Shown: positions 13,498 to 38,078, numbered from the stretch's first letter. The stretch: 41,474 bases of DNA from Parvularculaceae bacterium (GCA_021776435.1 JAJFFW010000111.1:1-41474), one strand, 5' to 3'. Notes: generated by a model not told the origin, from the sequence alone. Made by a program: numbers and translations.

Positions 13498-13512
13498 ACC
13501 TGGAGCATCAAA

Positions 13513-14850: not shown

Positions 14851-14852
14851 GT

Positions 14853-17702: not shown

Positions 17703-18175
17703 AGGAATTTTGGGCTGAGCGTTCCGAGCGCGAACATATTTTGATAATACTTGCTCTCGTTGTTTTTACAGTGGGCGTTTGTTATTTCTTTATCATCACA
17801 CCTCTTGGGCAGTGGCGTGACGCCGCCGCAGGCAGGGAAGCACGCGCCGAAGCGTTCTATGCGCTTGTTGCGGAGGTCTCGGAATCCGGTATTAGCGAGA
17901 GGGAGGCGATTGGAGAACGAGAGAGAAATACACCTTTGCGAAATACGCTGATGCAAACAGCACGAACCAACGAAATCACTCTCAGCTTTGTCAATAGACG
18001 TACTGATGGATCAATTGAGGTCAGTGCAGAACAGAGTAATCCAGAAAATTTATTCTTATGGATGCGTGAGCTTGATGAGCGTTATGCAATTCAGATCATC
18101 ACTGCTGATATCGCACAAGCAAATGACCAAGGGTCACTTGTGCGTGCTCAGCTCGTATTTCAGCGAATGCAATGA
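17699..18175 (+). CDS. gspM: Type II secretion system protein GspM
   Basis: This 158-residue bitopic inner-membrane protein has a short cytoplasmic tail, one membrane helix (about 15-37, ILIILALVVFTVGVCYFFII) and a periplasmic domain with coiled and ferredoxin-like parts (LFLWMRELDERYAIQIITADIA). GspM pairs with GspL. The ATG overlaps the gspL stop by four bases and the end overlaps gspN in the same way. Confidence 0.92.
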   Translation: MKEFWAERSEREHILIILALVVFTVGVCYFFIITPLGQWRDAAAGREARAEAFYALVAEVSESGISEREAIGERERNTPLRNTLMQTARTNEITLSFVNRRTDGSIEVSAEQSNPENLFLWMRELDERYAIQIITADIAQANDQGSLVRAQLVFQRMQ

Positions 18176-18993
18176 CAACTCTTGAGAATACAGAATTGAA
18201 TTCTCCTGATCGTTTCGTCGACATACGGTTATCTGCGCGCGTGTTGGCAGTTGTAGGGGCGGTGACTTTTGTTGTTACTTTCGTCGTGTTTGTCGCATTT
18301 CTCCCTGTCTCCATTTTGGGTAACCTTCTTTACGGAAAGCAGATCGTAAATTTCGACTATGAAACTGTAGAAGGAACGATCTGGAACGGCGCAGCACACG
18401 ATCTTAATATCTCAGGTGTTTCAATAGGCGAGGCACGGATTGCGTTTCATCCATTGTCGTTATTGACTGGCAAGATAGCAGCGAATTTTCAGACTGAAGG
18501 CGGCGCCGTAGAGAGCCGCGGAGTTCTGGTTCTTGGTGTCGGCGGTTTTACAGCTTTGCGGAATGTGGAGGCGGTGATTGATCATTCGGCATTTGCCAAC
18601 AATTATATTATGGGTGTGCCGGTTGAGGGGCGAACACAGACGATGATTTCCCAGGTTGTGTTCACCAAAAAGGGCTGCGCCCTCGCAGAAGGCTCTCTTT
18701 GGACGGACGTGCTGAATGAACCGGCCCTGCTCTTCACCCAGCAGGCATTTGAACTTTCTGGAAACATCAGATGCGATTCAAGTGATATTTTGATTGACCT
18801 TAGCGGTTTTAATGACAGTGGAGACGCCCAGATATTGATGCGCTTGCGGACTGGGTTGTATTATGATCTTGCTGTTACGGCATCACCTGCGAACCAAGAC
18901 ACGGAGCAGGCGCTCATGGCTTTTGGTTTTGAAGACAAGAATGGGGCGTTGACTTATAACTTGGCCGGTGAACTGAAGGGATCTGGATTATGA
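18172..18993 (+). CDS. gspN: Type II secretion system protein GspN
   Basis: This 273-residue protein has an N-terminal membrane helix (about 25-50, VGAVTFVVTFVVFVAFLPVSIL) and a periplasmic beta-rich domain with the T2SSN pattern (VEGTIWNGAAHDL, IAFHPLSLLTGKI, CALAEGSLWTDVL). GspN is present only in some T2SSs and its exact role is not settled. It overlaps gspM and the following lipoprotein gene by four bases each, so it is part of one translationally coupled chain. Confidence 0.92.
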   Translation: MTTLENTELNSPDRFVDIRLSARVLAVVGAVTFVVTFVVFVAFLPVSILGNLLYGKQIVNFDYETVEGTIWNGAAHDLNISGVSIGEARIAFHPLSLLTGKIAANFQTEGGAVESRGVLVLGVGGFTALRNVEAVIDHSAFANNYIMGVPVEGRTQTMISQVVFTKKGCALAEGSLWTDVLNEPALLFTQQAFELSGNIRCDSSDILIDLSGFNDSGDAQILMRLRTGLYYDLAVTASPANQDTEQALMAFGFEDKNGALTYNLAGELKGSGL

Positions 18994-22025: not shown

Positions 22026-22163
22026 ATGTCCCCTTTTTGGCCGACCGCATTGCGAGCGGGTTGCCACGCCCCAAACCACGTCCCAGTCATGCGCCTATTT
22101 TAAATCGCCGGCAGGCTCTCTTTCTCGTTCATTCCTTTGTGGCCATGTAAAATCAGCGCGGCG

Positions 22164-25100
22164 CTACTTATCGACCTGATCCGAGACGAAGTAAGGATCA
22201 CCGTTATCGTCGAGGAACAGCTGCTCCATTTCTGTCCTTTGGAATGGACGTGACCCGAAGCGTCCGAGAACGGCGATCTGATGACCTGTTTCATCAACGG
22301 CGCGATCGCGGTCAAGCCCTTTGGACAATGCAAGAGCTGGCTTCTTGGTTTTGCGCCACGCAATCAATTCCGGTTTTGGTTCGGCTGAAAAGCCATAGAA
22401 ATTAGGTTGCGATGCCGGACTGGTGAGTTGCAGCACCTTCAAGCCGTTGGCGCCGTCTGCGACATAGGCGAAGAGCGAAGCATTGGTCGTGCCGACAATG
22501 ACGTCACGGGCGTCATTGAGTGCGCCATCGAACGTCACCTTCTGATAGACAACCGGGTCTTCGGGGTTTTTGACATCGATGATCACGAGGCCTTCTTTCT
22601 TCGCTGCAACATAGGCGTAGGTGCGGGCCAAATAGATTTTCTGCGCGTCTGAGAGACGAATAAGCGCACCATCGACAAGTTTCGGCGCGTCCATCTTGGT
22701 GACATCAAAAACTTTCATGCCCTCGGCATCGGTCACAAATAGATAGCGGAATTGCAGCGCACTTGCGCGCATGTCGTTAAGGGGGATCACCGCGGTTGTT
22801 TTTGGTTTTAAAGGGTCATCGAGATCGAGAACGACAAGCCCCGCATCGACCGCCACGTAAGCATAATGCCCAGCGAGAGTGATATGCCGCGCCCCCGTCA
22901 GAACGCCGCCATCATTCCAGGTAAGGGCGCGTTTGAAAAAGTTATTGCGTGGCTCACCATCGGCAAGGGTGTTGATGTTGACTAGAATTAAACCCTCAAC
23001 CGCATCTGTAATAATCGCGTAATTATAGATCGGGTGGAACGCCTGCTCTCCGTTTGCCTTACGCATTGCCTCGGTGTTGCGTGCTGGATTGATGGGTTGG
23101 TTTGTCGGCAGGGCCATGCATGTCGCATTGGCTGTCTTGACGTGCATGTTTTGACCGAGCGGTGAAAGCGGCGCCGTGACGATCCGTTCCGAGAACGCTT
23201 TGTTACCGATATTCGCCACGTCATATGCTCGGAATCCACCCTTTCCTTGTGCTGTATACAGATATTCGCCGCGAAGTTGAAGGCAACGAACCGCCCCGCT
23301 GGTATCCTGCGCCACATTCGCAATTTCTTCCAGCGCGCCCGTCTCACCGGAAAACTCGTTATCACGGTCAAAGGTGTCGCCGCGCGTCCAGTTGATCAGT
23401 TCGCGATTATTTTGTTCAACATGCGCCTGATAATAGTCGGGATAAGCATATTTGTGCAGATAAGAACCAAACAGCGCCTGTGGCTCCTCCCATTCAGTTA
23501 CGCGCACGGCTTCGATTGCGCCATCAAGTCCGACCCAGGCGTGTAGCCCGATGAAATTAACGAAGTTCGTACCCAGCAATAAGAGCTGCGCCATTATGGC
23601 GTTGTTGTCATTATCTTTTGATAGATGACAGTCAGTACATGTCTTTGTTTCGGTCTTGCGAACGGTATGTGGAAAATGTGGTGCAAAGGCCTGGCTTGAA
23701 AACCCTATTGCGGAAATCGGCGGCTGTTGGACATAGATACGCTCGCGATTGACGTTTGTAGAGGACAATATAAGTGCTGATGATGACCGAACGGGAGCAA
23801 TTTTGTTATTTTTTGTGTCCTGATGTTTCCCTAGTTGGAACATTTGATCACGTGCAACTTGCGGGTTGTAAGTGGCAAAATTTCGCGTCGTTTCCCCATC
23901 ATAATGGTGTATCTCAGTTTTCCAGTTCGCTTCGATCGGTAGGTGGCATCCACCACATGACGTCGTCCACGACAGATGGCATGCGTAACACTCCATCTCA
24001 TCGCTCTTGTGAGCGAGATTGGACATATCAGCCTCAACACCCCATTTGAGTGCGCCTTCTGCGTTGCGCGACAAAAGTTTTGCGCGGGCGGATTTCGGAT
24101 TGTAGTTTGAGGATGACGGGTCAACGGAATCCTTGACCAGCGATAATTCCCATTCCAGGTTCGTGTCTATAATGGAGCGTTGAATGAGTTTGCGTTTGCC
24201 GGATCGGTTCACCCATTCAAACCGATACCGACCGTCCGGGTTGCGCAATACAGAAAGATCCCGACCAGCCGGCGAAGCCGCAGGTCCTGAGGTCTTCAGG
24301 GTCGGGTAATTCATTGCCGTGCCGTGACAATCTCGGCAACCGATTTCGACGGCGCTGGCAACTTCTCCATGTAGATAGCCGTTGCCGTGGCTATCTTGAG
24401 CGTAATGACAGTCTGCACACTGCATGCCCACCTCTGCGTGAATAGACATCATGTGAACGGTCTTACCGGGATTTTTACCGATAGAGACGAACTTCCCTTC
24501 GTCGGCTTTGCGCCATTTTTCGGGGTCGTCTGGCGCAACGATATTGTTTTCTGCGTCCAGGAGATTGCCTGCCTGGTCGCGCTTAAGAATGGCGCGGAAA
24601 TTCCAACCATGCCCATGATAGTCCGCAAACTGCGTGTCTTTAAGATCTGGATTCAAGTCATAAACATTACGGAGGAAGTCAAGATCCGCCCACTTGCCGC
24701 GAACCGACGCCTGTTCGGGGTTGCGATCCAATACAGCGCGCTGTTCTTCGATCGTCGGGTATTTCTGTTCTTTCGGCCACATATGCGGCGCGTCGGATTC
24801 GTAATCCCACATCGTGTATCCAAGAAATGAATTCAAAAACATATTCGGCTGATGCATGTGGCAAGCCATGCACTGGGATGTCGGAATCGCCCGCGAAAAG
24901 GCGTGCTTTATCGGATGCCCGGATTCGTTTTTCGGAATCGTCGGGTCGACAGTCGCGGTCTCACCGTCACGACCGAATTGCGTGTAAGTGAGCGCATGTC
25001 GCGGCTCGCGGTCATTGGCGTAAATGACATGGCAGGAGGCGCATCCCGACGACCGATAGTCACCTGGTTGATCGTTTGTGCCGAGAAACCACGTGAAGGG

Positions 25101-26099
25101 ATCGTTGAGCCGGGTCTTGTGAATATTGAGAACGGGGATCGCGACACGAAGGCCGGTGCCGGCGCCGCGGTTCGATTGATGGATATCCGGACGGCCCGGC
25201 TCTTCAAGTCGTTGCAATTGGCCGGTGGCGTTCGGCAGGCCAACCTCCGCGAATTGTGTCGCGATATTTCGACCGCCGCGTTCGAAGACGCGGAATATAT
25301 CCGCAGGGGGTAGAACATGCCAGGTCGGCATAGGGGCGAGAAACGGCAATACGCCTCGGGCGATAGCAGCAAGAGGGGGTGTGGTCGGGCAACCAACCGG
25401 AGAGTCTGTTGTCGGTTCGCCAGGGGAGCACAAAATCGCTGGCTCGCCGTCTCGTGTGTATGCTTCGCCGAGCACGTAGCGTTTGAACGGCAAAATGCCA
25501 TTGTTATAAGCAGCGCCGCCCCATAACATCGCACCCGTCGCCATCATTGAACGTTCGGCGGCGAGGATGTCGCGCATGTGACACGCGCCGCAAGACTCTC
25601 GCGCGACACGGTAATCCGATGGATTGACGAAACGAATGAACTCCGGCGACTCCTTGTTCAAGAGGGCGAAGCTGCGTTTCGGATTGGCGGAACTCGGGAA
25701 GTGCCAGCTTTCCGGGTATCGTGGTAATACGTGGGCTTTATCGCGTTCTTGAGCGTACTCAATGCTTTGTGTCGATAATCCCCTGGCGGAGAATACGGTC
25801 GCGTTACCGCCATGGCAGTCCGTACAACCCAACCGTATGTCGGCTGTGGGGTTATGCATCGTCGGGGCGTCGGTGGCGGTGTGGCAACTATGGCAGCCGG
25901 CGCTTTTCGCCTCAACCGCATTGCGATCCTGAAAGACAGGTGCAGGCGGCGCTGTGACACGCGTATAATCAATCTCGCGTGGTTTTTCTCCTTCCGACGC
26001 CAGAACAACGTTGCGCGTCAAAAACCCCAATACAAGCGCACCGGCGAGCGCCGCAAGGCGCGCCCAACGATAGAAGGATATGTTGCCTGCTTGTTTCAT
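22164..26099 (-). CDS. Exported decaheme cytochrome c with C-terminal LVIVD-repeat propeller
   Basis: This 1311-residue exported protein has an N-terminal hydrophobic signal (about 10-34, ending near VVLASEG). It carries ten CXXCH heme c motifs, with first cysteines at 69, 92, 170, 353, 410, 561, 588, 704, 715 and 821. After the last heme, from about residue 935 to 1245, come repeats of the LVIVD type (GLVVLDLDDP, GMKVFDVTKMDAP, GLVIIDVKNPEDP, GLKVLQLTSPA), predicted to form a beta-propeller. No lipobox or C-terminal anchor is seen. It starts four bases after the barrel gene stop, so it is co-translated with it. The probable role is the outermost electron carrier, with the propeller binding a partner, surface or substrate. 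It is not a recognised MtrC, OmcA or Omc homologue. Confidence 0.85.
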   Translation of the reverse strand: MKQAGNISFYRWARLAALAGALVLGFLTRNVVLASEGEKPREIDYTRVTAPPAPVFQDRNAVEAKSAGCHSCHTATDAPTMHNPTADIRLGCTDCHGGNATVFSARGLSTQSIEYAQERDKAHVLPRYPESWHFPSSANPKRSFALLNKESPEFIRFVNPSDYRVARESCGACHMRDILAAERSMMATGAMLWGGAAYNNGILPFKRYVLGEAYTRDGEPAILCSPGEPTTDSPVGCPTTPPLAAIARGVLPFLAPMPTWHVLPPADIFRVFERGGRNIATQFAEVGLPNATGQLQRLEEPGRPDIHQSNRGAGTGLRVAIPVLNIHKTRLNDPFTWFLGTNDQPGDYRSSGCASCHVIYANDREPRHALTYTQFGRDGETATVDPTIPKNESGHPIKHAFSRAIPTSQCMACHMHQPNMFLNSFLGYTMWDYESDAPHMWPKEQKYPTIEEQRAVLDRNPEQASVRGKWADLDFLRNVYDLNPDLKDTQFADYHGHGWNFRAILKRDQAGNLLDAENNIVAPDDPEKWRKADEGKFVSIGKNPGKTVHMMSIHAEVGMQCADCHYAQDSHGNGYLHGEVASAVEIGCRDCHGTAMNYPTLKTSGPAASPAGRDLSVLRNPDGRYRFEWVNRSGKRKLIQRSIIDTNLEWELSLVKDSVDPSSSNYNPKSARAKLLSRNAEGALKWGVEADMSNLAHKSDEMECYACHLSWTTSCGGCHLPIEANWKTEIHHYDGETTRNFATYNPQVARDQMFQLGKHQDTKNNKIAPVRSSSALILSSTNVNRERIYVQQPPISAIGFSSQAFAPHFPHTVRKTETKTCTDCHLSKDNDNNAIMAQLLLLGTNFVNFIGLHAWVGLDGAIEAVRVTEWEEPQALFGSYLHKYAYPDYYQAHVEQNNRELINWTRGDTFDRDNEFSGETGALEEIANVAQDTSGAVRCLQLRGEYLYTAQGKGGFRAYDVANIGNKAFSERIVTAPLSPLGQNMHVKTANATCMALPTNQPINPARNTEAMRKANGEQAFHPIYNYAIITDAVEGLILVNINTLADGEPRNNFFKRALTWNDGGVLTGARHITLAGHYAYVAVDAGLVVLDLDDPLKPKTTAVIPLNDMRASALQFRYLFVTDAEGMKVFDVTKMDAPKLVDGALIRLSDAQKIYLARTYAYVAAKKEGLVIIDVKNPEDPVVYQKVTFDGALNDARDVIVGTTNASLFAYVADGANGLKVLQLTSPASQPNFYGFSAEPKPELIAWRKTKKPALALSKGLDRDRAVDETGHQIAVLGRFGSRPFQRTEMEQLFLDDNGDPYFVSDQVDK

Positions 26100-26103
26100 C
26101 GCA

Positions 26104-27846
26104 TTAATAGGTCAACACCGCATTGAAAAGGACGGAATAATAAATTCCTCGTCTCTCATGATCGTCAAAAAGATCCTGAAACCCGTCGCCTGGCCGCAGG
26201 CCCGCACCGGACAGACGCAGTACAACATTTTGAATAAATCCGGGCCTGTAGATGACAGAGCCGGAGAAATCCCAGCCGATGTCTCTGTCGATATTTCCCT
26301 GGACGCGAAGCGCTTCCAATGTGTTCGTCTTGTGAAACCACAACCGGTTAGCATTAACGGAGATGCGCAGTGGCGCCATCACGTCAAAATCAGCGCCGAC
26401 ACCCGCAAGGATAATGCCTGGATTGTTGAAATTTGATTGGCCTTGTTCTTTCGACGATCTCAGATCTGGCAATACACCGTTGCGGCCCGAAACGCCGATG
26501 ACGCGACCACCACCGATAAATGGTATGGATTGCCGAACCCAGTAACTTGTATCGGCGCCGGCGAATTGCGGATTTTCTAAAATGGCGTCGAAGCCCCGTT
26601 CCGTATTGTCGTGCGGGTCGCCATCGCCACTTGCGAAAAGCCCCGACAGTCGAATCCGCATCCAATCCCGATCATAGGACGGCTCAATAGCAGCGAAAAA
26701 TGATCGTATATCTGCTGTTTTACCGGTGAAAATATTATTTCGATCTTCCCCCAACGCGTAATAGGCAGAGGTTGTAAGATTAAGCCGGCCAATTCGCCCG
26801 TCAGTATTGTAACCAAAATATACAATGTCGTAATTTCGGCCGCGCAAATTACCAATCAATGCCGGCCGCACCGGAAAGCCGTTTTTGTCGATCTCGATAT
26901 CGTCAGCTTCACGATTTAAATTGTAGGCGACAGTTATTTGACTGGTCAGCCCGGGAAACGGTAGATCTTGTCTGTAGAGATTGGCGAAAAAGACATAATC
27001 TTCGCGAGGGCTGGTCGTTATGTCGTTCAGCCCTGAATTTGTATCTTTTTCAAGGCGCGTGAAGGCGGCTAAATTGTATTGATACCGATTATTGTCACGG
27101 TTACCGAAAACCCGTACGCCAAGTTGGTTGTCCTGAAAGAGGAATCCTCTGAAGTCGCTCGAAAACGGCTGGATGCCGATGCGGACGGAATCGAAATCGT
27201 ATCGCTCAGAAACATTTCTGAGGTGGTAATCGACGAAAGCTTCTTGCAACCCGATAAAGCCGTCGTGGCGTTTGACACCTTCGGATGGCTCCACATGAAG
27301 AATGCGTAGCTCCTCCACCTGTGCGAAATTATAATTGAATACGGGCGTAAGGCGGAATTCGAGATCCTGCGGCTTATAGGCGGTTGATCCTTTGATCAAT
27401 GACAGGTTGGTGATCAGGTTTTGTGAAAAGAAGAAACTATCGGAGTCACCGAAGATATCGAGACTGTCAGGGCGCGACGTCGATTGAACGCCAACGGGCA
27501 GTGGAAATGAGCGTGGTTCCACGACGGTGTCCGAGATAAGAGAAGCGGCGAAAAACCAATCGTCCGTGCCAAAGATCGGTCTGTCGCCTTTCAACGTGTT
27601 TTGGTGATACGGATCCCACCATCGGGTTTTTAAAAGCCCTAGGCTTTCGGCGAGTCGCCATCGGTCCGGCACTGCGAGCATGCATTGTTCGAAAAGATCG
27701 TTTGGCGCACGACAATCTTTGTAATCGGATAGGCGCGGTGCTGGCACGGCGCCGCGATTGTTCGGCGTTTCTTCGGCCTCCTGCGCTGCACCAGAACTGA
27801 TCAAGGCGATGCTGGAGACGAGTGTCGAAAGGGTGATTGATCGCAT
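26104..27846 (-). CDS. Predicted outer-membrane beta-barrel protein
   Basis: This 580-residue protein has a signal peptide (MRSITLSTLVSSIALISSGAAQ). An N-terminal segment contains two cysteines (KDCRAPNDLFEQC) and the stretch WWDPYHQNTLKGDRPIFG. It then shows many alternating amphipathic strands ending in aromatic residues, and the C-terminus is VLFNAVLTY. This is the pattern of an outer-membrane barrel of perhaps 18-24 strands. I do not recognise a named family. The ATG at 27846 has AGGGGA upstream and lies four bases after the lipoprotein gene stop; longer starts would put the signal peptide inside. Packed directly before the decaheme gene, it is the best candidate for the sleeve or anchor carrying electrons across the outer membrane. 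Confidence 0.85.
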   Translation of the reverse strand: MRSITLSTLVSSIALISSGAAQEAEETPNNRGAVPAPRLSDYKDCRAPNDLFEQCMLAVPDRWRLAESLGLLKTRWWDPYHQNTLKGDRPIFGTDDWFFAASLISDTVVEPRSFPLPVGVQSTSRPDSLDIFGDSDSFFFSQNLITNLSLIKGSTAYKPQDLEFRLTPVFNYNFAQVEELRILHVEPSEGVKRHDGFIGLQEAFVDYHLRNVSERYDFDSVRIGIQPFSSDFRGFLFQDNQLGVRVFGNRDNNRYQYNLAAFTRLEKDTNSGLNDITTSPREDYVFFANLYRQDLPFPGLTSQITVAYNLNREADDIEIDKNGFPVRPALIGNLRGRNYDIVYFGYNTDGRIGRLNLTTSAYYALGEDRNNIFTGKTADIRSFFAAIEPSYDRDWMRIRLSGLFASGDGDPHDNTERGFDAILENPQFAGADTSYWVRQSIPFIGGGRVIGVSGRNGVLPDLRSSKEQGQSNFNNPGIILAGVGADFDVMAPLRISVNANRLWFHKTNTLEALRVQGNIDRDIGWDFSGSVIYRPGFIQNVVLRLSGAGLRPGDGFQDLFDDHERRGIYYSVLFNAVLTY

Positions 27847-27850
27847 CACT

Positions 27851-29863
27851 TCATTTCCCCTGACAGACATTTTGCTCATCTGAGTCCACAAAGGGCGAGA
27901 ACGGACAATTGATATAACGCAGGCGCACTTGTTTGCCGTTAACACTAATAACAATGCGGTCGGCGCGTATTCCGTTTAGCGCATTATTGATCGCGCCAAG
28001 TCGTTCGCCAGCGCGATCAACGCCGAGAAATGAGATCATGTCATCTTGATCGATGCCGTCGCCGGAAACGCCAATCCCCCCCACTAACACCGACCCGCGA
28101 TAGATCGGCACGCTGCCCGGAAAAATCTGAATGCCGTTCTGTAACCGATTTTGCATACCTCCTAGGCTCGCGATGTCGGGAAGGAAGGTGCATTGCGCAG
28201 GCGTATCGGCGCCGCCACCTAATGTATGCGTGATATGAATGAGAATATTCTCGATTATGAGTGACGCCTGGAGACCCGTCGCGAATGGACTCCATTGAGA
28301 GATCGGTAATGAGAATGGACCGTTCGGCGTTCCGACTTCACCGTCGGGGAAAAAAGGTCGAGAGAGATTGCCGCCAGCGCGGTCGGAAAAAGCAAAATCG
28401 CCTGTGAGGGCTGATGGGTCTGGGATAAAATTGCGTATGTCAGCAACGTAGCTTGCGGGCGATTTGGTAACGTTAGGGCTTGGAACCGCGGGCGGCGCCG
28501 TTGCAAGGAGATCAGAGGCCGCGATCGCGTTCGAAAAGAATGACGCTGTACGGGCTTTCTGTAGAGAGACATCGGTGCCGAAAATTGGTGCGTCCGGGCC
28601 GCGAACAATACCGAGAATGGCGCCGTTTGTATCGACCACTGATACGCTTACCTGAGCGCGACTGTCTAACGGTCTTCTGATCTGCGCCCGCGCCGCGGTC
28701 ATGACGGTGAATGCTTCTTCAAGGATGGTGCGAACCTCGGAAGCTGTTAGGGGTTGCGGCACGCCTGCGCCGTCCGTGCCGCCAGTGGGAGGGTATCGGT
28801 TATTGCCAGCGCCGTCGGTCAAAACGAACATGTCTGTGTTCGCATATTCCGTGACCGTCGCGGCGCGCATGCCCGAAGACTCAGCACCGTAGGCAACGCC
28901 TGCAATGACACCGCCCATAGTGGCGCCATCGAAATATGATGTTACGTCAACCAGGGCGCCGAAGACGCCGTTGACTGAAGCGAAGGATGCTGCTGCAGGG
29001 TCGGCGATCAGGTCGCTCGTTACAATATCGGAAAAGCGTAATGTGGCGCCGTCGACCGCGATGCGTTCGGCGCGAATTTCCGCCGGAGCTTCGAAACCTG
29101 TTGAGGCGGCCAGCGCGATCGCTTCTTCGTCACTGGCGTCAATGTCAAGTATGTTAAGGTCAAAGCCATAATCGCCGTCAGCGACGATGCCAATACCGCC
29201 AACGACAAAGCCATCCTTATAAAGAGGGAATCCGCCTGGGTCCGCCGCCAACCCTAATGGCGCACGGTGCGGGCCGATGCGTGCGCCGCCTGATATGAAG
29301 CGGGTAACAAGATCAGAACAGGGAAGTTGGCTAAACTGCACGCCAAAAAGTGGCCCGCTTTCCAGACCGGCTGTCGACGGGCTCGGTGGAAAATGTTGTT
29401 GAACGATCATGCTGGCGGTGCGGGTTGAAAAAGCATTGCCGCCGGACGAAAGATAAGCGCCGGTGATCGCTTTTGAAATCGCCGCAAGAGTCGCTGGCGC
29501 GGCCAGTCCCTGAAGTGCTGTGTTTGTTCCGGCGGGGCCGGCGCGCACAGTTGTCGTCGCCGAAGCGCCTGTCATCTGGAAGACGCCAAGCACGTTGCCG
29601 GCGCGATCGACGATGGCGATGGTAGCGGCCGTTTTGCGCGCGCGCGCTTCTTCTACGGCTTGCGCAATAATGCGTTCGACATCGCTGACAGTGAGATTAC
29701 GAAGCTCCGGTTTGAACAAAGGCGAAGCGCTAGGCGCCGGGGGTGGAGGCGGTGGCGCCGTTGGGGGAGGCAATATGGAGTTGCTGTCGCCTTCGCCCCC
29801 ACATCCGACGATAACGAAAAGTGCGGTCGCAAGCGCCGCCCATTGTCCCCACTTTTGCCTCAA
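27851..29863 (-). CDS. Lipoprotein with two GlcG/HbpS-like domains
   Basis: This 670-residue lipoprotein has the lipobox VIVGC with Cys21, followed by Gly-Gly and a proline-rich linker (32-47). Outer-membrane location is therefore likely. Two GlcG/HbpS-type domains (the family includes heme-binding HbpS) can be seen. The first, about 55-270, has LTVSDVERIIAQAVEEA, ATIAIVDRAGNVLGVF and FPLYKDGFVVGGIGI. The second, about 375-640, has LTASEVRTILEEAF, VSVVDTNGAILGIV and VPIYRGSVLVGGIGV. Both contain long insertions. The start is TTG at 29863 with GGGGG about nine bases upstream. It is packed four bases before the barrel gene. A role in heme or redox-partner binding at the outer membrane is inferred. 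Confidence 0.85.
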   Translation of the reverse strand: MRQKWGQWAALATALFVIVGCGGEGDSNSILPPPTAPPPPPPAPSASPLFKPELRNLTVSDVERIIAQAVEEARARKTAATIAIVDRAGNVLGVFQMTGASATTTVRAGPAGTNTALQGLAAPATLAAISKAITGAYLSSGGNAFSTRTASMIVQQHFPPSPSTAGLESGPLFGVQFSQLPCSDLVTRFISGGARIGPHRAPLGLAADPGGFPLYKDGFVVGGIGIVADGDYGFDLNILDIDASDEEAIALAASTGFEAPAEIRAERIAVDGATLRFSDIVTSDLIADPAAASFASVNGVFGALVDVTSYFDGATMGGVIAGVAYGAESSGMRAATVTEYANTDMFVLTDGAGNNRYPPTGGTDGAGVPQPLTASEVRTILEEAFTVMTAARAQIRRPLDSRAQVSVSVVDTNGAILGIVRGPDAPIFGTDVSLQKARTASFFSNAIAASDLLATAPPAVPSPNVTKSPASYVADIRNFIPDPSALTGDFAFSDRAGGNLSRPFFPDGEVGTPNGPFSLPISQWSPFATGLQASLIIENILIHITHTLGGGADTPAQCTFLPDIASLGGMQNRLQNGIQIFPGSVPIYRGSVLVGGIGVSGDGIDQDDMISFLGVDRAGERLGAINNALNGIRADRIVISVNGKQVRLRYINCPFSPFVDSDEQNVCQGK

Positions 29864-29930: not shown

Positions 29931-31433
29931 TTAAATATATCCGTGTGCTAACATTGCTTCGCCAACGCGGACAAAACTCGCTACATTGGCGCCCGTTTGA
30001 TAATCGGCGACACCGTTTACAACCGGGGCATATTCCACGCACTGCGTATGAATGGAGCGCATAATTCGCTCAAGTTCTTTTTCCACCTGGTCACGTGTCC
30101 AAACCAGGCGCATGGCGTTTTGCGCCTGCTCAAGGCCCGACACTCCAACACCTCCAGCATTTGCCGCCTTAGCCGGGCCGAATAAAACGTTGTTATGCTT
30201 TAAAACATGAATCGCCTCTGCGGTCAGAGGCATGTTAGCCCCTTCCGCCAGCACTTCGAGACCATTGCGGCACATGGTGTCAGCCATGCTTTCATCGATT
30301 TCATTTTGCGTTGCGCATGGAAGGCCAACCTGGCAGGGAACGGCCCACGGGCTCTTGCCAGCGTGGTAAGTTACGCCGTGCGCTTTATTGGCAAAAACGG
30401 AAAGCGATTCGCGGCGCACTTCCTTGACGTTTTGTAGAATCCTGAACGAGTCTTCGTTGAAGCCATCCTTAACATGTGCGAAGCCGCGACTGTCTGAGAC
30501 GGCGACGACTTTTGCACCCAACTGCATAGCGCGTTCGAGGGCGTAGAGAGCAACATTGCCGGCGCCGGAAACCACGACGGTCTTGTCTTTTATTGTTTTG
30601 TTGTGATGTTGCAGCATGTCTTCGGCGAAAACGACCGCGCCATAGCCGGTCGCCTCCTTGCGAATTTCACTGCCGCCGAAAGCGAGCCCCTTGCCAGTGA
30701 GAACGCCAGTGTAGCGATTGGCGAGCTGCTTATATTTACCGAATAGATAGCCGATCTCGCGTCCTCCGACGCCAATATCACCGGCTGGCACGTCGACGAC
30801 TTCGCCAATATGTCGGTATAACTCACTCATCATCGAATGACAGAAACGCATGATCTCTAGGTCCGAACGACCCTTCGGATTAAAGTTAGACCCACCTTTA
30901 CCACCACCCATCGGCAGGCGTGTCAAAGAGTTTTTGAAAGTTTGCTCAAAGCCTAAGAATTTCAGTATACTGAGAGTAACACTGGGGTTGAACCGTAAAC
31001 CGCCTTTATACGGACCGAGAGCACTGTTAAATTGAACGCGATAGCCTTTGTTCGCATGCGGTATGCCGTTATCATCTTCCCATACGACACGAAACATAAT
31101 GACCCTATCGGGCTCTGTCATACGTTCGAGGAGTCTCGCGTCGCGGTATCGATGATTATCAAGGTAAAAGGGCATCACCGTTTCGACGAACTCGAATACA
31201 GCCTGATGAAATTCCTGTTCATGCGGGTTGCGTCGTTTAAGACCGGCCATGAAGTCGTCGATCTCGCTTACGGCGCCGCGCCCGCCCGACCCGATGGCAA
31301 ATTTCGCGGTTGGCGCGCTGGGGTCTCTCGTGGGTGGGTTGGTCATGTTTTGATGCTCCGATTCAGATGATGACAGTTTGTCCGTGCGCTGCCCTGCCGC
31401 CGCTTGCGGATTGTGCTTCTTTCGCCAAAACAT
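29931..31433 (-). CDS. gdhA: NADP-specific glutamate dehydrogenase
   Basis: This 500-residue enzyme interconverts glutamate and 2-oxoglutarate plus ammonium with NADP(H). It matches the hexameric 450-residue E. coli GdhA family: YKGGLRFNPSV, the catalytic lysine loop LPMGGGKGGSNFNPKG, DIGVGGREIGYLFG and the dinucleotide site VVSGAGNVALYALE. The first about 50 residues are an extra hydrophilic extension. The ATG at 31433 has GGGAGA seven bases upstream. The internal ATG at 31346 (MTNPPTRDPS) has GGAG upstream and would give a standard length, so both starts are possible. It sits inside the cytochrome block, with 80 bases before and 67 after, an unexpected place for this housekeeping enzyme. 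Confidence 0.95.
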   Translation of the reverse strand: MFWRKKHNPQAAAGQRTDKLSSSESEHQNMTNPPTRDPSAPTAKFAIGSGGRGAVSEIDDFMAGLKRRNPHEQEFHQAVFEFVETVMPFYLDNHRYRDARLLERMTEPDRVIMFRVVWEDDNGIPHANKGYRVQFNSALGPYKGGLRFNPSVTLSILKFLGFEQTFKNSLTRLPMGGGKGGSNFNPKGRSDLEIMRFCHSMMSELYRHIGEVVDVPAGDIGVGGREIGYLFGKYKQLANRYTGVLTGKGLAFGGSEIRKEATGYGAVVFAEDMLQHHNKTIKDKTVVVSGAGNVALYALERAMQLGAKVVAVSDSRGFAHVKDGFNEDSFRILQNVKEVRRESLSVFANKAHGVTYHAGKSPWAVPCQVGLPCATQNEIDESMADTMCRNGLEVLAEGANMPLTAEAIHVLKHNNVLFGPAKAANAGGVGVSGLEQAQNAMRLVWTRDQVEKELERIMRSIHTQCVEYAPVVNGVADYQTGANVASFVRVGEAMLAHGYI

Positions 31434-31513: not shown

Positions 31514-32851
31514 TCATTGTTCCAAAAACGTCTCGATTTTGCGCAGCGCGTCCCTAAATCTAATCTGGTCGTACGTAGAAGGGCTTTGAACATGATTGCT
31601 CGCCTGCTCAATAGCCGTTGTCATTTCTGTGGAATTCAATTCTAGGTCAGCTGATAGTCGTTGCACTGCAAAGAGCGCTTGCTCGGCGGCGGCGTAATTT
31701 GTGTACCGTTCCGCGAGCGAAGCATCGACGACTTCGCGAAGAATGGCGCGAACCATTGCAGGATCTGAGAAATCCGCAGAAAGAACGCGTGACGCCATTT
31801 CATCTGTCGTCGCGCGAAGAACGATCGCAGAACGACGAAATTGCTTACTGCTTTGTAAAGATGCAGCGTGCAAAGCTCGTCCGTTGTTTTCTAAACGTTC
31901 AGCGAGTACTGTATCAAGCCCTCGCGCCGCGGCGATTAACATGAAAAGATTGGCGTCGTTAAGAATAGGAACGCCGGGACCGAGCGGACGGAGCGGATTG
32001 GGCCGCCAGCTCAAATCCTTTAAACCGCTTGAAATTGGCTGGTGACAGGCGTGGCAGTCGAAAAAGAAAAGCTCAGGGAATGGACCTTCTCCGCTGATCT
32101 TTTTATCAAGCAACAGATCTAGTGTACGTTGTAAGGCGCTTACCTGGCCAATCGCCCAGACCTGGGCGCCCGGGGCGACCGTTTTACGTGTGCTATAGCC
32201 AGCGTCGGTGCGATGGTGCTGTTGAATGGTTGTATAAAGATCGAGCTCGAATTTAAGTCTCGGATGTCCGGCGCCCATGATCTTATGCGAGACGAATTGA
32301 TTTTTAGCGCCGGAACCAAGGTGACAGTTTAAGCACAGCTGAGCGCGTGCGGAGGGGTCTTCGGTCGGATACAATCCGGCCTCGACGTTCAGCGCATGGT
32401 CTGCGCTGCTACGGTGAAATGCGAGCCAGTCTTGTGCGCCTCCGTGACAGGCTTCACAACCGACTCCGTCACTGATCTGAAACCGTTCGCTGCGCAGCGT
32501 ATCGGGCACATTGTCAGCGTGACAGTCTAAACACTCGTCAGCCTTTTGCGCTGGGCCAATCCCCAAATTGCGAGCGATACGCTGAGCATGGGGCGTCAAC
32601 AAAACCTCATACGCGCGTGAGTGCGCGCCTGATTCACCGAACGCCCGCCAACGGAAGTATTCGTTTTGTCCGACGACAGGACCGGCGCCCGGTCCCGCCA
32701 CCTGATCGCCATGGCATCCGGCGGTCGCGCAGCTCGCAACGCCGGTATGATTATATCCGTCCATCAACGGCGCCGACGGCGCCTGCGCATACACGGACGC
32801 AAGGGTGCACAGCGCAAATGAAAAGATAGATATTATCACTGTTCGGAACAT
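31514..32851 (-). CDS. Periplasmic pentaheme cytochrome c (c554-like)
   Basis: This 445-residue protein has a cleavable signal peptide (MFRTVIISIFSFALCTLASVYA). Its first heme site is the unusual CX4CH (C41-C46-H47, CATAGCH). Four normal sites follow: CLDCH, CEACH, CLNCH and CHACH. The pattern of hemes in the N-terminal 260 residues resembles cytochrome c554-type multiheme proteins. The C-terminal 150 residues have no heme and are helical. The ATG at 32851 overlaps the upstream gene stop (TGATG). It probably shuttles electrons in the periplasm between the anchored decaheme protein and the outer membrane. An enzymatic role cannot be excluded. Confidence 0.85.
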   Translation of the reverse strand: MFRTVIISIFSFALCTLASVYAQAPSAPLMDGYNHTGVASCATAGCHGDQVAGPGAGPVVGQNEYFRWRAFGESGAHSRAYEVLLTPHAQRIARNLGIGPAQKADECLDCHADNVPDTLRSERFQISDGVGCEACHGGAQDWLAFHRSSADHALNVEAGLYPTEDPSARAQLCLNCHLGSGAKNQFVSHKIMGAGHPRLKFELDLYTTIQQHHRTDAGYSTRKTVAPGAQVWAIGQVSALQRTLDLLLDKKISGEGPFPELFFFDCHACHQPISSGLKDLSWRPNPLRPLGPGVPILNDANLFMLIAAARGLDTVLAERLENNGRALHAASLQSSKQFRRSAIVLRATTDEMASRVLSADFSDPAMVRAILREVVDASLAERYTNYAAAEQALFAVQRLSADLELNSTEMTTAIEQASNHVQSPSTYDQIRFRDALRKIETFLEQ

Positions 32852-34677
32852 CACTTCGCCCCATCACTGAATTTTACGACGGCGTTAGTCGATGTCATCA
32901 AGGGCGCGTTATTGCTATCGTCATGATAGCTGTGGCAGGTAAGACAATCCGAAGCGATCGCCTTTGTTCCGCTCGTATCATTATGGCAGGTGCGGCAGAC
33001 GGTGATGCTAGGCATTAGAACGTCCGAAGAGTGCGACGATGTTTCTGCGCGATGACAGTCGACGCAATCCGTGTTGCCGGCCATGTGCTGAGCATGGCTA
33101 AATTGAGCTTTCGGCAGATACCGGTTGGTGAGTTTTACGGGTTGCATGCGCGGCATCCCACTGTTGGCGCCGGAATCAATCGTCGTGTGGCATTTCTGAC
33201 AAATGCCGTCTTTGGAGAATATACGGGCGATCATATTTTGGGTGTTGGTGCGCGCGTCGACAAAAGCGCTGCTCTGCGATTGTGCGCGGCGCGCGCGCGC
33301 CTCAGCGCTCAACTGGCGCTCCAAGACACCCGACGGCCGATCGCCGAGCAATAACTCCGTCGCTTTGGCCAAATAAAAGTCCTCCAGCGTAGCGCGCACG
33401 TCTTCGGGGTCGCCATGGGGAAGGAATCTCACGTTAGCATTTTGCTCCGTGACGAATGCCAGCGAATGACAATCGCCGCAATGAAGCTCCATTTCAATTG
33501 GCGTGATAAATGCCCCCGCAGCGTCCACTTGATGACAATCGGCGCAGTCTAGCTTATCGCCGTAACGCGCCTGCGATACAGGTCCCAAAGTAGCAAGTTT
33601 GCGGATGACCTCTTTGTCTTTCAGATGAAAGTCATGGGGAAATTTAAGGCCGTTATTTTCCTTGGGATGCTCGACCAGCGAAATACGTTGCACAGAAAGA
33701 ATGTCAGGTTGTGGATCAAGAATGATTCTGGGTTTGAATTCCGGATGCCAATGGGAGAAGTTTATGACGTTGACAAGCGTTGTTTCGTCGAACCGTCTGT
33801 CCATGCTGCTATGGCACTCAACGCACATTGATGACGATGTCGGCGTGACGCCGTTCGCGCCATTGTGCTCGAAGTGACAGGAACCGCATCGCTCTTCCGG
33901 TATGTTGAGCTGGTTGTGCAAGCTGGATAGCCATCTTTCTCTGGTGGTTTTATCCGGTGCTGCAGCAACGAGTGATTGCGCAGGGGCGTGATTGCGCGTC
34001 TGGCTATGGCACGATAAACAAACGTCGTCTCGAACCCGCACAAAGGTTTGTTCATGGCATACCCGGCAGTTCGCACCAAGATTTGCATGAGCCGATGACA
34101 AGGCGCCGGAGAGCCAATTCTGATTGGCGATCGGTGATAGGTAATCAATTGTGCTACGTTGCTGTCTCGGTTCACCTGATTCATCTAGGTAAACAATGAG
34201 TGGAATAGCAAGAAAGACGGTAAAGACCAAAACGGTGACTGCCCACGCACTAATTCGTTTGTCCGGCGCGTAGCCTTTCATCGAGAAGATCTCGTCTTCA
34301 TCGCCGCTTTCGCCGACAGCCGTAGGAGCTTCAACAAGCTCTATTTCGATTAAGAGATCGGCGTCTGCATCTGCGGGTCCTAGAGTAATCTTGTAGGGCC
34401 CTATTCGAACGTCGGCGTCTTGATCAATAGAGAGGTCACGACGACGAATAAGTGCCCCATCTACTCGCACGCGGTAATCCGTGCTCGCTTCAATCCGAGC
34501 CTTTTCTGGAGTTCTACAAATGAGGCGTGCATGATGAAGTCCAACACGCAAATCCGGCAGATGCACATCGCAATCTGTCGCGCGCCCAAATGTGACATTG
34601 TCCTTATCGTAGATCGTCGGCCTGACAGTAATGCGACCGCCAGGACGTCGTCGAATGAATTCAACTCGTATCGCCAT
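32851..34677 (-). CDS. FHA domain - membrane helix - decaheme cytochrome c fusion
   Basis: From the ATG at 34677 this is 608 residues. Residues about 23-98 form an FHA fold (FGRATDCDVHLPDL, LHHARLIC). The FHA Arg32 and His49 are kept, but the usual phosphothreonine-contacting Ser is Gly46. An acidic linker leads to one membrane helix (142-164, SAWAVTVLVFTVFLAIPLIVYL), then a periplasmic part with ten CXXCH sites between residues 204 and 578. The basic KR before the helix supports a cytoplasmic FHA and a periplasmic cytochrome. It starts seven bases after the membrane b-type gene, and its stop overlaps the next ATG. Upstream in-frame starts add a non-FHA tail and were rejected. It likely receives electrons from the b hemes. 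I know of no described protein with this architecture. Confidence 0.85.
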   Translation of the reverse strand: MAIRVEFIRRRPGGRITVRPTIYDKDNVTFGRATDCDVHLPDLRVGLHHARLICRTPEKARIEASTDYRVRVDGALIRRRDLSIDQDADVRIGPYKITLGPADADADLLIEIELVEAPTAVGESGDEDEIFSMKGYAPDKRISAWAVTVLVFTVFLAIPLIVYLDESGEPRQQRSTIDYLSPIANQNWLSGALSSAHANLGANCRVCHEQTFVRVRDDVCLSCHSQTRNHAPAQSLVAAAPDKTTRERWLSSLHNQLNIPEERCGSCHFEHNGANGVTPTSSSMCVECHSSMDRRFDETTLVNVINFSHWHPEFKPRIILDPQPDILSVQRISLVEHPKENNGLKFPHDFHLKDKEVIRKLATLGPVSQARYGDKLDCADCHQVDAAGAFITPIEMELHCGDCHSLAFVTEQNANVRFLPHGDPEDVRATLEDFYLAKATELLLGDRPSGVLERQLSAEARARRAQSQSSAFVDARTNTQNMIARIFSKDGICQKCHTTIDSGANSGMPRMQPVKLTNRYLPKAQFSHAQHMAGNTDCVDCHRAETSSHSSDVLMPSITVCRTCHNDTSGTKAIASDCLTCHSYHDDSNNAPLMTSTNAVVKFSDGAK

Positions 34678-34684
34678 TACTGAA

Positions 34685-35560
34685 TCACCAGAAGAAGAAA
34701 ACGCTGACGATATGCGCAACGAGAGCGGCGAGAAGCGCAAAGGCCAGCGGAACGTGAAAGTGTAACCATAAACGAAGAAGGGTTGTAAAACGGATGTGCC
34801 TGCGAGTGCGCAACAACAGGGCGTTTTTGCGCTCCAGGATCGCCATTATGTCTTCAAGCGGGCGACGCATTTCTTCCGGCGCCGATGGCGCCGCATGGCG
34901 CAGACGTTTGAGGGCGTGGGTTGTGGCGCATCGCTTTTGCGTGGCGGAGATCGATGTGAATAGACCCGGACGTATCTTGGTTTTGCTGATGGCGCGTTTT
35001 ACTTCCCGCACATACGCCGGATCAAGGGGCTGGGCTGCTTCCCGCAATTGACGGTCGATGCTACGGATCGCCGTCAGCAGTTCAGCCTGGCTTCGTTGCG
35101 CGCGATTGTCGCTCATGCGCCGTGGCGTCGTCGCATAGAAATAAACGCCGTAGAAACCCGAAATGATCACGAACACCATCAGCGTATAGGCAAGAGTGTG
35201 CACATTGAGGCCGAATTGAAAACCGGTGTGCAATGTCGCCAACACCAACAGTGACGCCCCTAGATAAACATGCGCAGACGTCCATCCTTTCAGGTTCCAA
35301 TGACCAGGCGTTATTGCGCGTTTGCGCAAACCAATAAGCATTAGCCAGACGATCAAAAGGGTGGAGATTGTCCCGAGTGTATAGCCGTACCAGGTGCCGC
35401 CATTGTGTCGTGGTTCGACATCGACGAACAGATAAACAATGATGCTCACGATGCTGATAACCACAGCCGCCTTCAAGTAGCGATACCGTTTGTGGCGGAG
35501 AAAGCCTTCATGTCGGATGGGCGTATCCGAAGATTGGGTATGACTATCGAGCGCTGTCAT
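34685..35560 (-). CDS. Predicted di-heme b transmembrane electron-transfer protein
   Basis: This 291-residue membrane protein has five predicted helices (about 32-49, 59-78, 95-116, 123-144 and 264-291). Helix 3 carries H97 and H111 and helix 5 carries H269 and H283, each pair exactly 14 apart. That is the geometry used for two stacked b hemes in transmembrane cytochromes. Basic residues place the N-terminus and a 118-residue loop (145-262), rich in Arg and Lys, in the cytoplasm. The C-terminus then lies on the periplasmic side. I do not recognise a named family. It lies seven bases after the flavin/iron-sulfur gene and seven before the FHA-decaheme gene, so a role carrying electrons across the inner membrane between them is a natural inference. 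Confidence 0.82.
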   Translation of the reverse strand: MTALDSHTQSSDTPIRHEGFLRHKRYRYLKAAVVISIVSIIVYLFVDVEPRHNGGTWYGYTLGTISTLLIVWLMLIGLRKRAITPGHWNLKGWTSAHVYLGASLLVLATLHTGFQFGLNVHTLAYTLMVFVIISGFYGVYFYATTPRRMSDNRAQRSQAELLTAIRSIDRQLREAAQPLDPAYVREVKRAISKTKIRPGLFTSISATQKRCATTHALKRLRHAAPSAPEEMRRPLEDIMAILERKNALLLRTRRHIRFTTLLRLWLHFHVPLAFALLAALVAHIVSVFFFW

Positions 35561-35567
35561 AGTGTCT

Positions 35568-38078
35568 TTAATCCTGCGATCCGCTGGCGATCTGCAGATA
35601 ATCGTCGGGTGAGATTCGTATAGCCGCCCCTGTGGGGCACGCGCGTACGCATGCCGGCCCGCCTTTTATGCCGGCGCACATGTCGCATTTAACGGCGAGT
35701 TTCGGTGCGGTTTCGTCTTTTTTCTTGTGGCTATCGACCCATTCTCGTTTCGGTTCTCCGGGGCCTGGCCCGACGCCAAACGCCAGCCAAGAAAAAAGGC
35801 CGGGCTTTTTCGGCGGTACCGCTGCCATTTGAATCACACCGTACGGGCAGTTGCGTTCGCAATTACCGCACCCGATGCATTTATCGTCGATGAAGACTTC
35901 GCCGTCAGGACCGCGATGGATGGCGTCGGGAGGGCAATCGGTCATACAATGTGGATGTTCGCAATGACGACACGATGTCGGCACATGAAGATAAGCATAG
36001 GTGTTGCCCGCTTCCCGATCCAGTCGAGAGATCCCTTCGTGAATTTCTGCGCAAGCCACTTCGCAGTTGTCGCACCCTATGCAAAGAGTTTCATCAATAA
36101 CCAGGGCGTCAGTAGCTTCGCTCAATCCCTCCTGTTCCAAAAGGAATCTTGCGATCGAACTATGCATGTCAACGACAGATGAAAAACTTTCACGCTTCGC
36201 TTCGATATAGTCATTGACGCGACGGCGTTGTGCGACTTGTTTTTCGACGGTTTGACGAAATTCAGAATTTTCGGCTAATAGGCGTTCAAAAACCTCACCC
36301 GGCAATTTTACCACTTCCGATTTAATCGCTGCACGGACAGTAGCCGTCCTATAGCCATCGTAGAATAGCGACATTTCCCCGACATAATTGCCGGCGAGGA
36401 TATAAGACAGAAAAACGTCTTTTCCGCCGATTTGTTTTTCTACGACGGCGCTGCCGGAGCGAATGATGTAAATGTCCGTCGAGTGATCCCCCTCGTTGAT
36501 AAACGCCTCGCCGGCTCTAAGGGGGATGATCTCCGAGCGCGAGAGGATTTCACCAACATCGTGCGGCGTGAGTACGCGGCCGAAAATTTGTCCGATTTGC
36601 CGTTCCATCGACAGGCGTTCCATGCGCCGTTTCACGCCTGGTACGGATGCGATCAGTTTCAGGGTCGCATTGCGTGGAATTTCGAGCAGCATCGTCGGTT
36701 CGCCAGCGCGTACCGTGGCGGTGCGCCGTCGGCCGGATATTAAACCCAATTCACCGAAGATCGAGCCGGCTTCAATGGGCACTGTTTTTTTCTTATCATT
36801 GGGATCTATTTCAACGCGTACCGAGCCGTCAATGATGGCGAAAATCGACGAACCGATGTCATTTCGGTTGACGATCACCTCGCCGAGTCTTTTGTAATGC
36901 GTCATTGAAGTCAAAAGAAATTCACGCATCTGCAGTGGCGAGACGTCTTGAAGAATCTCTACGCCGGTGCGGATATAATCGAGCCACTCGTCGACGCTGC
37001 GGTGTACCGACGCTTTTTCGAAGAGCAGTTCGAGCAGCGGTGTGTCAGGCGGTTGCAGGTCAGTATTGCCAGCGATGAATTCGACGACGTCGTGGCCCTG
37101 GTTCATGCAGTGTTTGATCAGAGGAAAACCGGCAAGCGCGCCGATAATATATAGGCCGGGCACGCTGCTCTCATATTGGGCTGAGAGTATTGGAAACGCT
37201 TCTCGGTCAGGGCCAGTGAACTCGACGCCCGCCGCTTCGACGAATTTCCGCGGTGGGGCTGCGCCAAGTCGAGCGATGACGCGATCACAGGCGAGCCTTG
37301 CCTCGCCATCCTTGGTGTCGACAACGGCAACCCACGGATTTTCGCCAGATCCACCCTTTTCGATTCGGAGAAGTGAAGCCTGAGTAATAAAATCGAGGCG
37401 GCCGTCGTCACGCGCCTTATGAAGGGCTTGAACATTGGCTTCTTTGGCGCGCGGAAATCCGTCAGCGCGCTGAAGGAGCGTGACGAGGTTGCCTTGTTCG
37501 GGATCAGCGGCAAGGCCTAATGCATTCTCGATACCTGCATCGCCGCCGCCGATGACAACGATGTGCTCGTCGAAATATTCCTTTGGATCATCAAGTTGAT
37601 ACTGCACGAAAGGTAAATCGCCGCCAGGCTGAGAGACCTTGTTCGGGTTGCCTTGCACGCCAATCGCGAGAACGACAAAATCGGCGGTAATGGTTTCACC
37701 ATCGGCCAGGGTAAGCTGGAAATTCCCCTGCGATCCTTGGATCGATACAATATCAGAATTTAAACGCACATTGATTTTCAGGGCGTCGGCGCCATCGTCC
37801 CACCGGTCTATGATACTCTCGCGGGAACCGGCCTCAAATGCGACGTCGCTGCGTAGCGGCAGCTGATCCGGTGTCGCCATAATATATTTGCCGCGCTGAT
37901 ATTTATAGATCGTGTCGGAAAGGTGCGACGTCTTTTCCAAAAGAATGTGCGATATTCCACGAGCGGAGGCGCGCGCGGCGGCGCTCAACCCGGCAGGGCC
38001 TGAACCGACAATTGCGACTTTGAAACTCTCCAAAAGCCCTGTTCCCCCACCTGCCGCCGCCTTGATAATACCCGACAA
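35568..38078 (-). CDS. NAD(P)H/FAD oxidoreductase fused to two cyclic-nucleotide domains and a four-[4Fe-4S] domain
   Basis: This 836-residue soluble protein has no signal peptide. Residues 18-340 are a TrxB/YpdA-like two-dinucleotide fold with FAD site GSGPAG (25-30) and NAD(P) site GGGDAG (177-182); the thioredoxin-reductase CXXC is absent. Two cyclic-nucleotide-binding domains follow (about 385-470 and 510-600). Both keep the Glu and Arg of the phosphate cassette (FGELGLISGRRRTATV; VGEMSLFYDGYRTATV). Residues 660-820 are NrfC/DmsB-like with sixteen cysteines in four sets (666-676, 703-715, 734-744, 798-814), enough for four [4Fe-4S] clusters. The start is TTG at 38078; a TTG at 38033 with AGGG upstream is an alternative. 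Likely role: passing NAD(P)H electrons to the membrane b protein under second-messenger control. Confidence 0.88.
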   Translation of the reverse strand: MSGIIKAAAGGGTGLLESFKVAIVGSGPAGLSAAARASARGISHILLEKTSHLSDTIYKYQRGKYIMATPDQLPLRSDVAFEAGSRESIIDRWDDGADALKINVRLNSDIVSIQGSQGNFQLTLADGETITADFVVLAIGVQGNPNKVSQPGGDLPFVQYQLDDPKEYFDEHIVVIGGGDAGIENALGLAADPEQGNLVTLLQRADGFPRAKEANVQALHKARDDGRLDFITQASLLRIEKGGSGENPWVAVVDTKDGEARLACDRVIARLGAAPPRKFVEAAGVEFTGPDREAFPILSAQYESSVPGLYIIGALAGFPLIKHCMNQGHDVVEFIAGNTDLQPPDTPLLELLFEKASVHRSVDEWLDYIRTGVEILQDVSPLQMREFLLTSMTHYKRLGEVIVNRNDIGSSIFAIIDGSVRVEIDPNDKKKTVPIEAGSIFGELGLISGRRRTATVRAGEPTMLLEIPRNATLKLIASVPGVKRRMERLSMERQIGQIFGRVLTPHDVGEILSRSEIIPLRAGEAFINEGDHSTDIYIIRSGSAVVEKQIGGKDVFLSYILAGNYVGEMSLFYDGYRTATVRAAIKSEVVKLPGEVFERLLAENSEFRQTVEKQVAQRRRVNDYIEAKRESFSSVVDMHSSIARFLLEQEGLSEATDALVIDETLCIGCDNCEVACAEIHEGISRLDREAGNTYAYLHVPTSCRHCEHPHCMTDCPPDAIHRGPDGEVFIDDKCIGCGNCERNCPYGVIQMAAVPPKKPGLFSWLAFGVGPGPGEPKREWVDSHKKKDETAPKLAVKCDMCAGIKGGPACVRACPTGAAIRISPDDYLQIASGSQD

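Follow-up and report, generated by a model that had tools for sequence, protein, structure and literature searches.

An FHA domain joined to a membrane-anchored decaheme cytochrome in Proteobacteria: a putative subunit of an NAD(P)H-linked electron conduit

We identified in the window (the whole 41,474-nt stretch of DNA analysed, JAJFFW010000111.1 of the Parvularculaceae bacterium GCA_021776435.1) a real, widely conserved and uncharacterised inner-membrane protein, in which a forkhead-associated (FHA) domain, one transmembrane (TM) helix and ten c-type haem sites make up a single polypeptide. The reading we prefer, to which we assign a probability of roughly 0.55, is that this FHA cytochrome serves as the decaheme subunit, seated in the inner membrane, of a conduit that carries electrons across the cell envelope and is linked to NAD(P)H, and that its FHA domain is a phospho-independent dock for a FAD-type front end.

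Architecture of the FHA-decaheme cytochrome

The protein and its parts are located as follows:

32851..34677, minus strand: FHA-TM-decaheme cytochrome, 608 amino acids (ATG at 34677 to TGA at 32851)
34333..34677, minus strand: N-terminal FHA domain, residues 1–115, predicted to be cytoplasmic (Pfam PF00498, AlphaFold2 model, Foldseek, VIA-align)
34186..34242, minus strand: single TM helix, residues 146–164 (hydropathy 2.64; AlphaFold2 helix at 139–166; invariant Arg141 ahead of it)
32851..34095, minus strand: periplasmic decaheme region, residues 195–608 (ten haem motifs and ten conserved His; Pfam c3 and c7)

The coordinates given by the original prediction hold, and the strand is the minus one, as shown by the single 608-aa ORF on the reverse complement; the plus strand of the same interval has many stops. 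Pfam matches comprise an FHA domain at residues 28–82 (PF00498, 21.8 bits against a cut-off of 20.7), a cytochrome c3 domain at 196–290 (55 bits) and a cytochrome c7 domain at 525–583 (47.8 bits), which, along with exactly ten CXXCH motifs and one hydrophobic segment, bears out the claim that an FHA domain and a membrane-anchored decaheme cytochrome occur in one protein.

The same design is found in all 25 proteobacterial sequences of our homologue alignment, i.e., the window protein and 24 proteins from other genomes, 24–61% identical to it. That two genes have been fused by a sequencing or assembly error, the eventuality against which the original prediction was to be judged and for which one could cite genome G056 (L038:16058-17042), where the FHA and haem parts are in different frames, is practically ruled out by these 24 further homologues with the identical joint, one of them on the closed plasmid of Sphingobium herbicidovorans. 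The frame break in G056 lies in the linker, near residues 109–121, and may be natural or due to misassembly of that metagenome-assembled genome (MAG).

In the AlphaFold2 model, computed from the alignment of the 25 natural homologues, residues 1–114 form a beta sandwich with a pLDDT of mostly 82–91 and a weaker block at residues 11–20. A Foldseek search with the FHA model returned FHA-containing chains in all 50 of the 50 rows listed, and VIA-align superposed the model on the FHA domain of Ki67 with a Z score of 10.4 (2.7 Å over 95 residues), the FHA domains of Ki67, EmbR, CT664, GarA and OdhI together ranking at Z 9.5–10.4 (2.7–2.9 Å). By these three approaches, the domain is an 11-strand beta sandwich resembling solved FHA domains, and PF00498 matches 21 of the 25 homologues at E ≤ 0.01. 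With Pfam in agreement, the proviso that residues 23–98 might not adopt an FHA fold falls away.

The phosphopeptide-binding face is another matter. Gly31 and Arg32 are invariant (25/25) and His49 is conserved in 23 of the 25 sequences; Ser occupies the phosphate-contact position 46 in five and the loop Asn position 73 in ten, with Gly46 and Asp73 in the window protein itself. Across the 25 sequences, the family thus lacks the conserved Arg, Ser, His and Asn of phosphothreonine-binding FHA domains. The original observation that Arg and His are kept and the usual Ser is replaced by Gly46 was correct, and so was the doubt it raised about phosphopeptide binding. Judged from the aligned sequences, the FHA fold is retained and the phosphothreonine face is not, and the domain may bind some phosphate or acidic ligand, given the conservation of Arg32 and His49.

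On the other side of the TM helix, ten haem sites (CXXCH or CX4CH) were found in all 25 sequences. Beyond the haem motifs, exactly ten periplasmic His residues (197, 230, 271, 311, 348, 351, 421, 528, 531 and 585) are conserved in 24–25 of the 25 sequences, which is the number required for ten bis-His haems. The matches to Pfam c3 and c7 and the ten predicted bis-His haems fit a class III/c7-type multihaem cytochrome. Profiles for named subfamilies scored far lower than their cut-offs, at 38.6 bits versus 180 for QrcA (NCBIfam NF041781) and 28.3 bits versus 192.2 for DmsE/MtrA-type decaheme cytochromes (NCBIfam TIGR03508). The AlphaFold2 confidence is lower for the haem part than for the FHA part. 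Attachment of c-type haem occurs in the periplasm and the helix is single; the haem part would therefore be periplasmic and the FHA part cytoplasmic, which supports the topology originally proposed.

Gene neighbourhood and phylogenetic distribution

The FHA cytochrome is encoded by the third gene of a four-gene minus-strand unit, with 7-base gaps and one 4-base overlap, in the order FAD/NAD(P)-2xcNMP-4x[4Fe-4S] oxidoreductase, putative b-type membrane cytochrome, FHA-decaheme cytochrome and pentaheme c554. Genes for glutamate dehydrogenase (GDH), an HbpS-like protein, a probable barrel and an LVIVD cytochrome all lie downstream of this unit. The features surrounding the FHA cytochrome, and a gene fusion in other genomes, are:

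35568..38078, minus strand: FAD/NAD(P) oxidoreductase with two cyclic-nucleotide-binding (CNB) domains and four [4Fe-4S] sites, 836 amino acids, start codon unsure
34685..35560, minus strand: putative b-type membrane cytochrome, 291 amino acids, adjoining the FHA cytochrome and always found with it
31514..32854, minus strand: cytochrome c554-like pentaheme (four CXXCH and one CX4CH), its start overlapping the FHA-cytochrome stop by 4 bases
29931..31433, minus strand: GDH; of the 21 carriers having one, 15 show it linked to the module
27851..29863, minus strand: HbpS-like exported protein, possibly lipid-anchored (PF03928), conserved in the cluster
26104..27954, minus strand: probable outer-membrane beta-barrel, judged from its sequence, without a Pfam match
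22164..26099, minus strand: LVIVD-repeat decaheme cytochrome, likely exported, co-occurring with the FHA cytochrome
L090:5843-9202 and L091:3046-6420: FAD-CNB-CNB-FeS/b cytochrome fusion

The 836-aa protein carries FAD and NAD(P) motifs and 16 Cys residues grouped into four sets of the kind that binds [4Fe-4S] clusters, and by eye both of its CNB domains retain the GE...R-T-A phosphate-binding motif. In the 291-aa family, His97/His111 and His269/His283 (H-x13-H twice) are invariant (25/25). Cytochrome b561 (PF01292) is matched by 24 of the 25 members, mostly weakly (best 2.4e-6; 15.2 bits for the window protein against a cut-off of 30.1), while a comparison with ferric reductase/NOX-type proteins yielded the two His pairs about 14 residues apart in 25/25 but PF01794 in only three of the 25, with a poor model (mean pLDDT 68) for which fold comparison returned only generic helical bundles. 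A profile of the family run against PDB sequences matched nothing but b subunits of ATP synthase (E about 0.06). The 291-aa protein is best read as a putative di-haem b cytochrome.

Two further loci lie next to the cluster. Just beyond the LVIVD cytochrome lies a type II secretion operon (7926-18993; GspC, D, E, F, G and L by Pfam); in Shewanella, type II secretion exports surface cytochromes. A Na+/H+ exchanger with a C-terminal CNB domain (19509-22079), present also in L033, is a second cNMP-linked protein at the locus.

Parvularculaceae, Sphingomonadaceae-type genomes and more distant members of the phylum share the three-gene core. In a sample of 398 genomes of the phylum, the profiles of the FHA cytochrome and the b cytochrome hit the identical 15 genomes, in adjacent genes (Fisher p about 2e-27, a value that overstates significance as the test ignores kinship). 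Of 100 relatives, 16 have an FHA cytochrome, and 15 of these also have the LVIVD cytochrome, the one exception (G018) having only a contig-end fragment; the LVIVD cytochrome is absent from the remaining 84. G010 has both, at distant positions on the contig. A single genus, with two genomes (G132 and G248), joins the FAD-CNB-FeS protein to the b cytochrome in a polypeptide of 1120–1125 amino acids, an argument for a physical complex. The module also occurs on plasmids: the operon of S. herbicidovorans MH is on the closed plasmid pMSHV (L095), and 12 Sphingobium records have the module on large plasmids, one of them typed as conjugative.

A profile search in Planctomycetota, followed by inspection of the neighbourhoods of 20 sampled loci, revealed the same module, lacking the FHA domain. 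There, the decaheme cytochrome has no FHA match at any of the 20 loci, and its TM-sized hydrophobic segment passes a strict threshold in about half of the proteins and looks weaker in the others. A CNB-CNB-FeS protein is found at 17 of the 20 loci, in no case with a FAD domain; NuoEF is nearby at six loci, and a NuoG-like N-terminal part is fused to the CNB-FeS protein in several cases. The b cytochrome and c554 are present, and often also the barrel and the LVIVD cytochrome, the latter at 44–47% identity. Apparent fusions of b cytochrome and decaheme at four loci (L137, L138, L140 and L142) were discarded: the N-termini of these long ORFs are out-of-frame read-through and the b cytochrome is a separate ORF. 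One planctomycete locus encodes a separate 202-aa FHA protein (L139:18502-19107, minus strand; 67.3 bits) about 7 kb from the FHA-less decaheme.

In Proteobacteria, the FHA domain and the FAD domain occur together at every locus with both genes in view. Being jointly present in this phylum and jointly absent in Planctomycetota, they indicate that the presence of the FHA domain goes with the kind of front end in the cytoplasm. This association separates two phyla and may reflect a single evolutionary event; as support for docking, it is suggestive.

A putative electron path and the competing readings

In the conduit that we propose, electrons would pass from NAD(P)H to FAD and on to the four [4Fe-4S] clusters within the cytoplasmic 836-aa protein, whose two CNB domains are a probable regulatory input, and then to the b haems of the 291-aa membrane protein, if the carriers act in that order. 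From there, they would reach the ten bis-His c haems of the FHA cytochrome, the pentaheme c554 and finally the LVIVD decaheme and the outer-membrane barrel, by which the path could extend to the outer surface; the co-occurrence of a barrel with exported multihaem proteins suggests such an extracellular conduit. The FHA domain would hold the FAD-type cytoplasmic front end, its putative binding partner, at the membrane with no need of phosphate. Precedents exist in GarA and OdhI, whose FHA domains act without phosphate and bind and regulate metabolic enzymes (PMC12321487; PMC9769921). More tentatively, one could see here a new class of complex for respiration or redox export, an NAD(P)H oxidoreductase gated by cyclic nucleotides, independent of quinones and wired via a b cytochrome to a periplasmic decaheme and the cell surface, in which the FHA dock was gained as Proteobacteria swapped a front end of the NuoEF(G) type, seen in Planctomycetota, for one of the FAD type.

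We favour outward electron flow, since it runs downhill and with the membrane potential. The same complex may instead run in reverse, with electrons from outside making NAD(P)H, although we hold this to be the less probable direction: from Fe(II) to NAD(P)H, the transfer is energetically uphill and opposed by the membrane potential, and neither Sphingobium nor most of the carriers are known as lithotrophs. The reversal would suit one relative, a biocathode MAG (L022), and a cluster of FHA proteins with ten haem motifs among iron oxidisers (PMC10734462).

It is unlikely, in our view, that the FHA domain instead has a structural or oligomerising role, like its counterpart in YscD/MxiG, which form the inner-membrane ring of type III secretion. 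The topology is identical and PF16697 (Yop-YscD_cpl) matches 23 of the 25 FHA-decaheme proteins; however, no ring-forming partner was seen at these loci, and a structural role alone leaves the joint absence of the FHA and FAD domains in Planctomycetota unaccounted for.

Somewhat more doubtful is a GarA-like role, whereby the FHA domain would tether or regulate the linked GDH, supplying NAD(P)H to the conduit. In those 15 of 21 carriers, which come from at least three families, no more than 15 kb separates the GDH gene from the FHA cytochrome, in differing order and orientation, and the FHA domains of GarA and OdhI are among the structural matches. These fold matches are, however, uninformative on the partner; four carriers have no such GDH, several Sphingomonadaceae-type genomes lack the linkage, and the window GDH belongs to a class different from the large mycobacterial enzyme.

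The original prediction had Ser/Thr-kinase signalling touch the electron carrier directly, the FHA domain reading phosphothreonine from a Hanks Ser/Thr kinase and so gating the cytochrome. This now appears very improbable. We surveyed the Pkinase family in the 25 carrier genomes; in the window genome, which is 98.6% complete, the profile search gave no Pkinase match over the cut-off, and hence no pair of Hanks kinase and FHA protein, the window protein being the only FHA match. The single weak Pkinase match of that genome is an ABC1/UbiB protein. The conserved Arg32 and His49 would agree with phosphothreonine reading, as would the presence of at least one Pkinase over the cut-off in 12 of the 25 carriers, but the other 13 (the window genome and 12 more) have neither a Pkinase nor another FHA domain over the cut-off. 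The scarcity of the phosphate-contact Ser and the loop Asn also tells against it, and four of the five homologues with that Ser come from kinase-less genomes. With no Hanks-type Ser/Thr kinase detected in its genome, the FHA-decaheme protein probably reads no kinase signals; phosphorylation by kinases outside the Pkinase family may occur. Judged by its gene neighbourhood, the protein looks more like a stoichiometric component of a redox complex than like a phospho-sensor.

Comparison with known systems

Membrane-linked multihaem subunits of the c3/c7 type are known in QrcA of the Qrc complex and ActA of Alternative Complex III, both of which work with quinones. QrcA and ActA show weak sequence matches to the window protein, and they lack an FHA domain. 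At inner-membrane entry points of the CymA/CbcL type, quinol is oxidised and electrons are passed to periplasmic multihaem carriers; whereas these use quinol, the partner in the window system is a FAD/NAD(P)-[4Fe-4S] protein with cNMP domains.

For the FHA side, YscD and MxiG share with the window protein a cytoplasmic FHA-like domain, one TM segment and a periplasmic part; unlike it, they carry no haem and form a secretion ring. GarA and OdhI use FHA as a metabolic protein–protein domain with an unphosphorylated partner (PMC12321487), as we propose for the window FHA domain, but they are small, soluble and under the control of PknB/PknG-type kinases, which are absent from the window genome.

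The combination itself had been tabulated. Our literature search on FHA domains with multiheme or decaheme cytochromes, or with Sideroxydans, found one paper, in which MMseqs2 cluster 403 of the Gallionellaceae, a "Forkhead-associated protein" with ten haem motifs, is listed for 27 of 87 iron-oxidiser genomes (PMC10734462, Table 1). Like the window protein, cluster 403 is annotated with FHA and ten haem motifs; it is known from that one table row, which gives no domain layout, operon or function, and going by this description, it is a probable homologue. The claim that no characterised protein has this design stands, in that none was found, while an FHA annotation together with ten haem motifs had been seen. 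A close counterpart occurs in S. herbicidovorans MH (plasmid pMSHV), where WP_037469325.1, 34% identical to the window protein over 99%, is encoded in the same gene trio with LVIVD, barrel, HbpS and c554 genes nearby, as in the window; it is uncharacterised and named "cytochrome c3 family protein", with no mention of FHA.

If our reading is right, this would be the first role of an FHA domain within an electron-transfer complex, and a kinase-independent one, on a path that links NAD(P)H to multihaem cytochromes of the periplasm and probably of the cell surface. This path would be shared by Planctomycetota and several lineages of Proteobacteria, among them a Sphingobium strain that can be cultivated, and is concealed by standard annotation as "cytochrome c3 family protein" and "hypothetical protein"; the swap of front ends would amount to a natural experiment in the re-plumbing of electron conduits. 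The pairing of FHA with ten haems has thus been seen before and not explained, and a conduit that combines an FHA dock with a front end of the NAD(P)H/cNMP type would add to the multihaem conduits already known.
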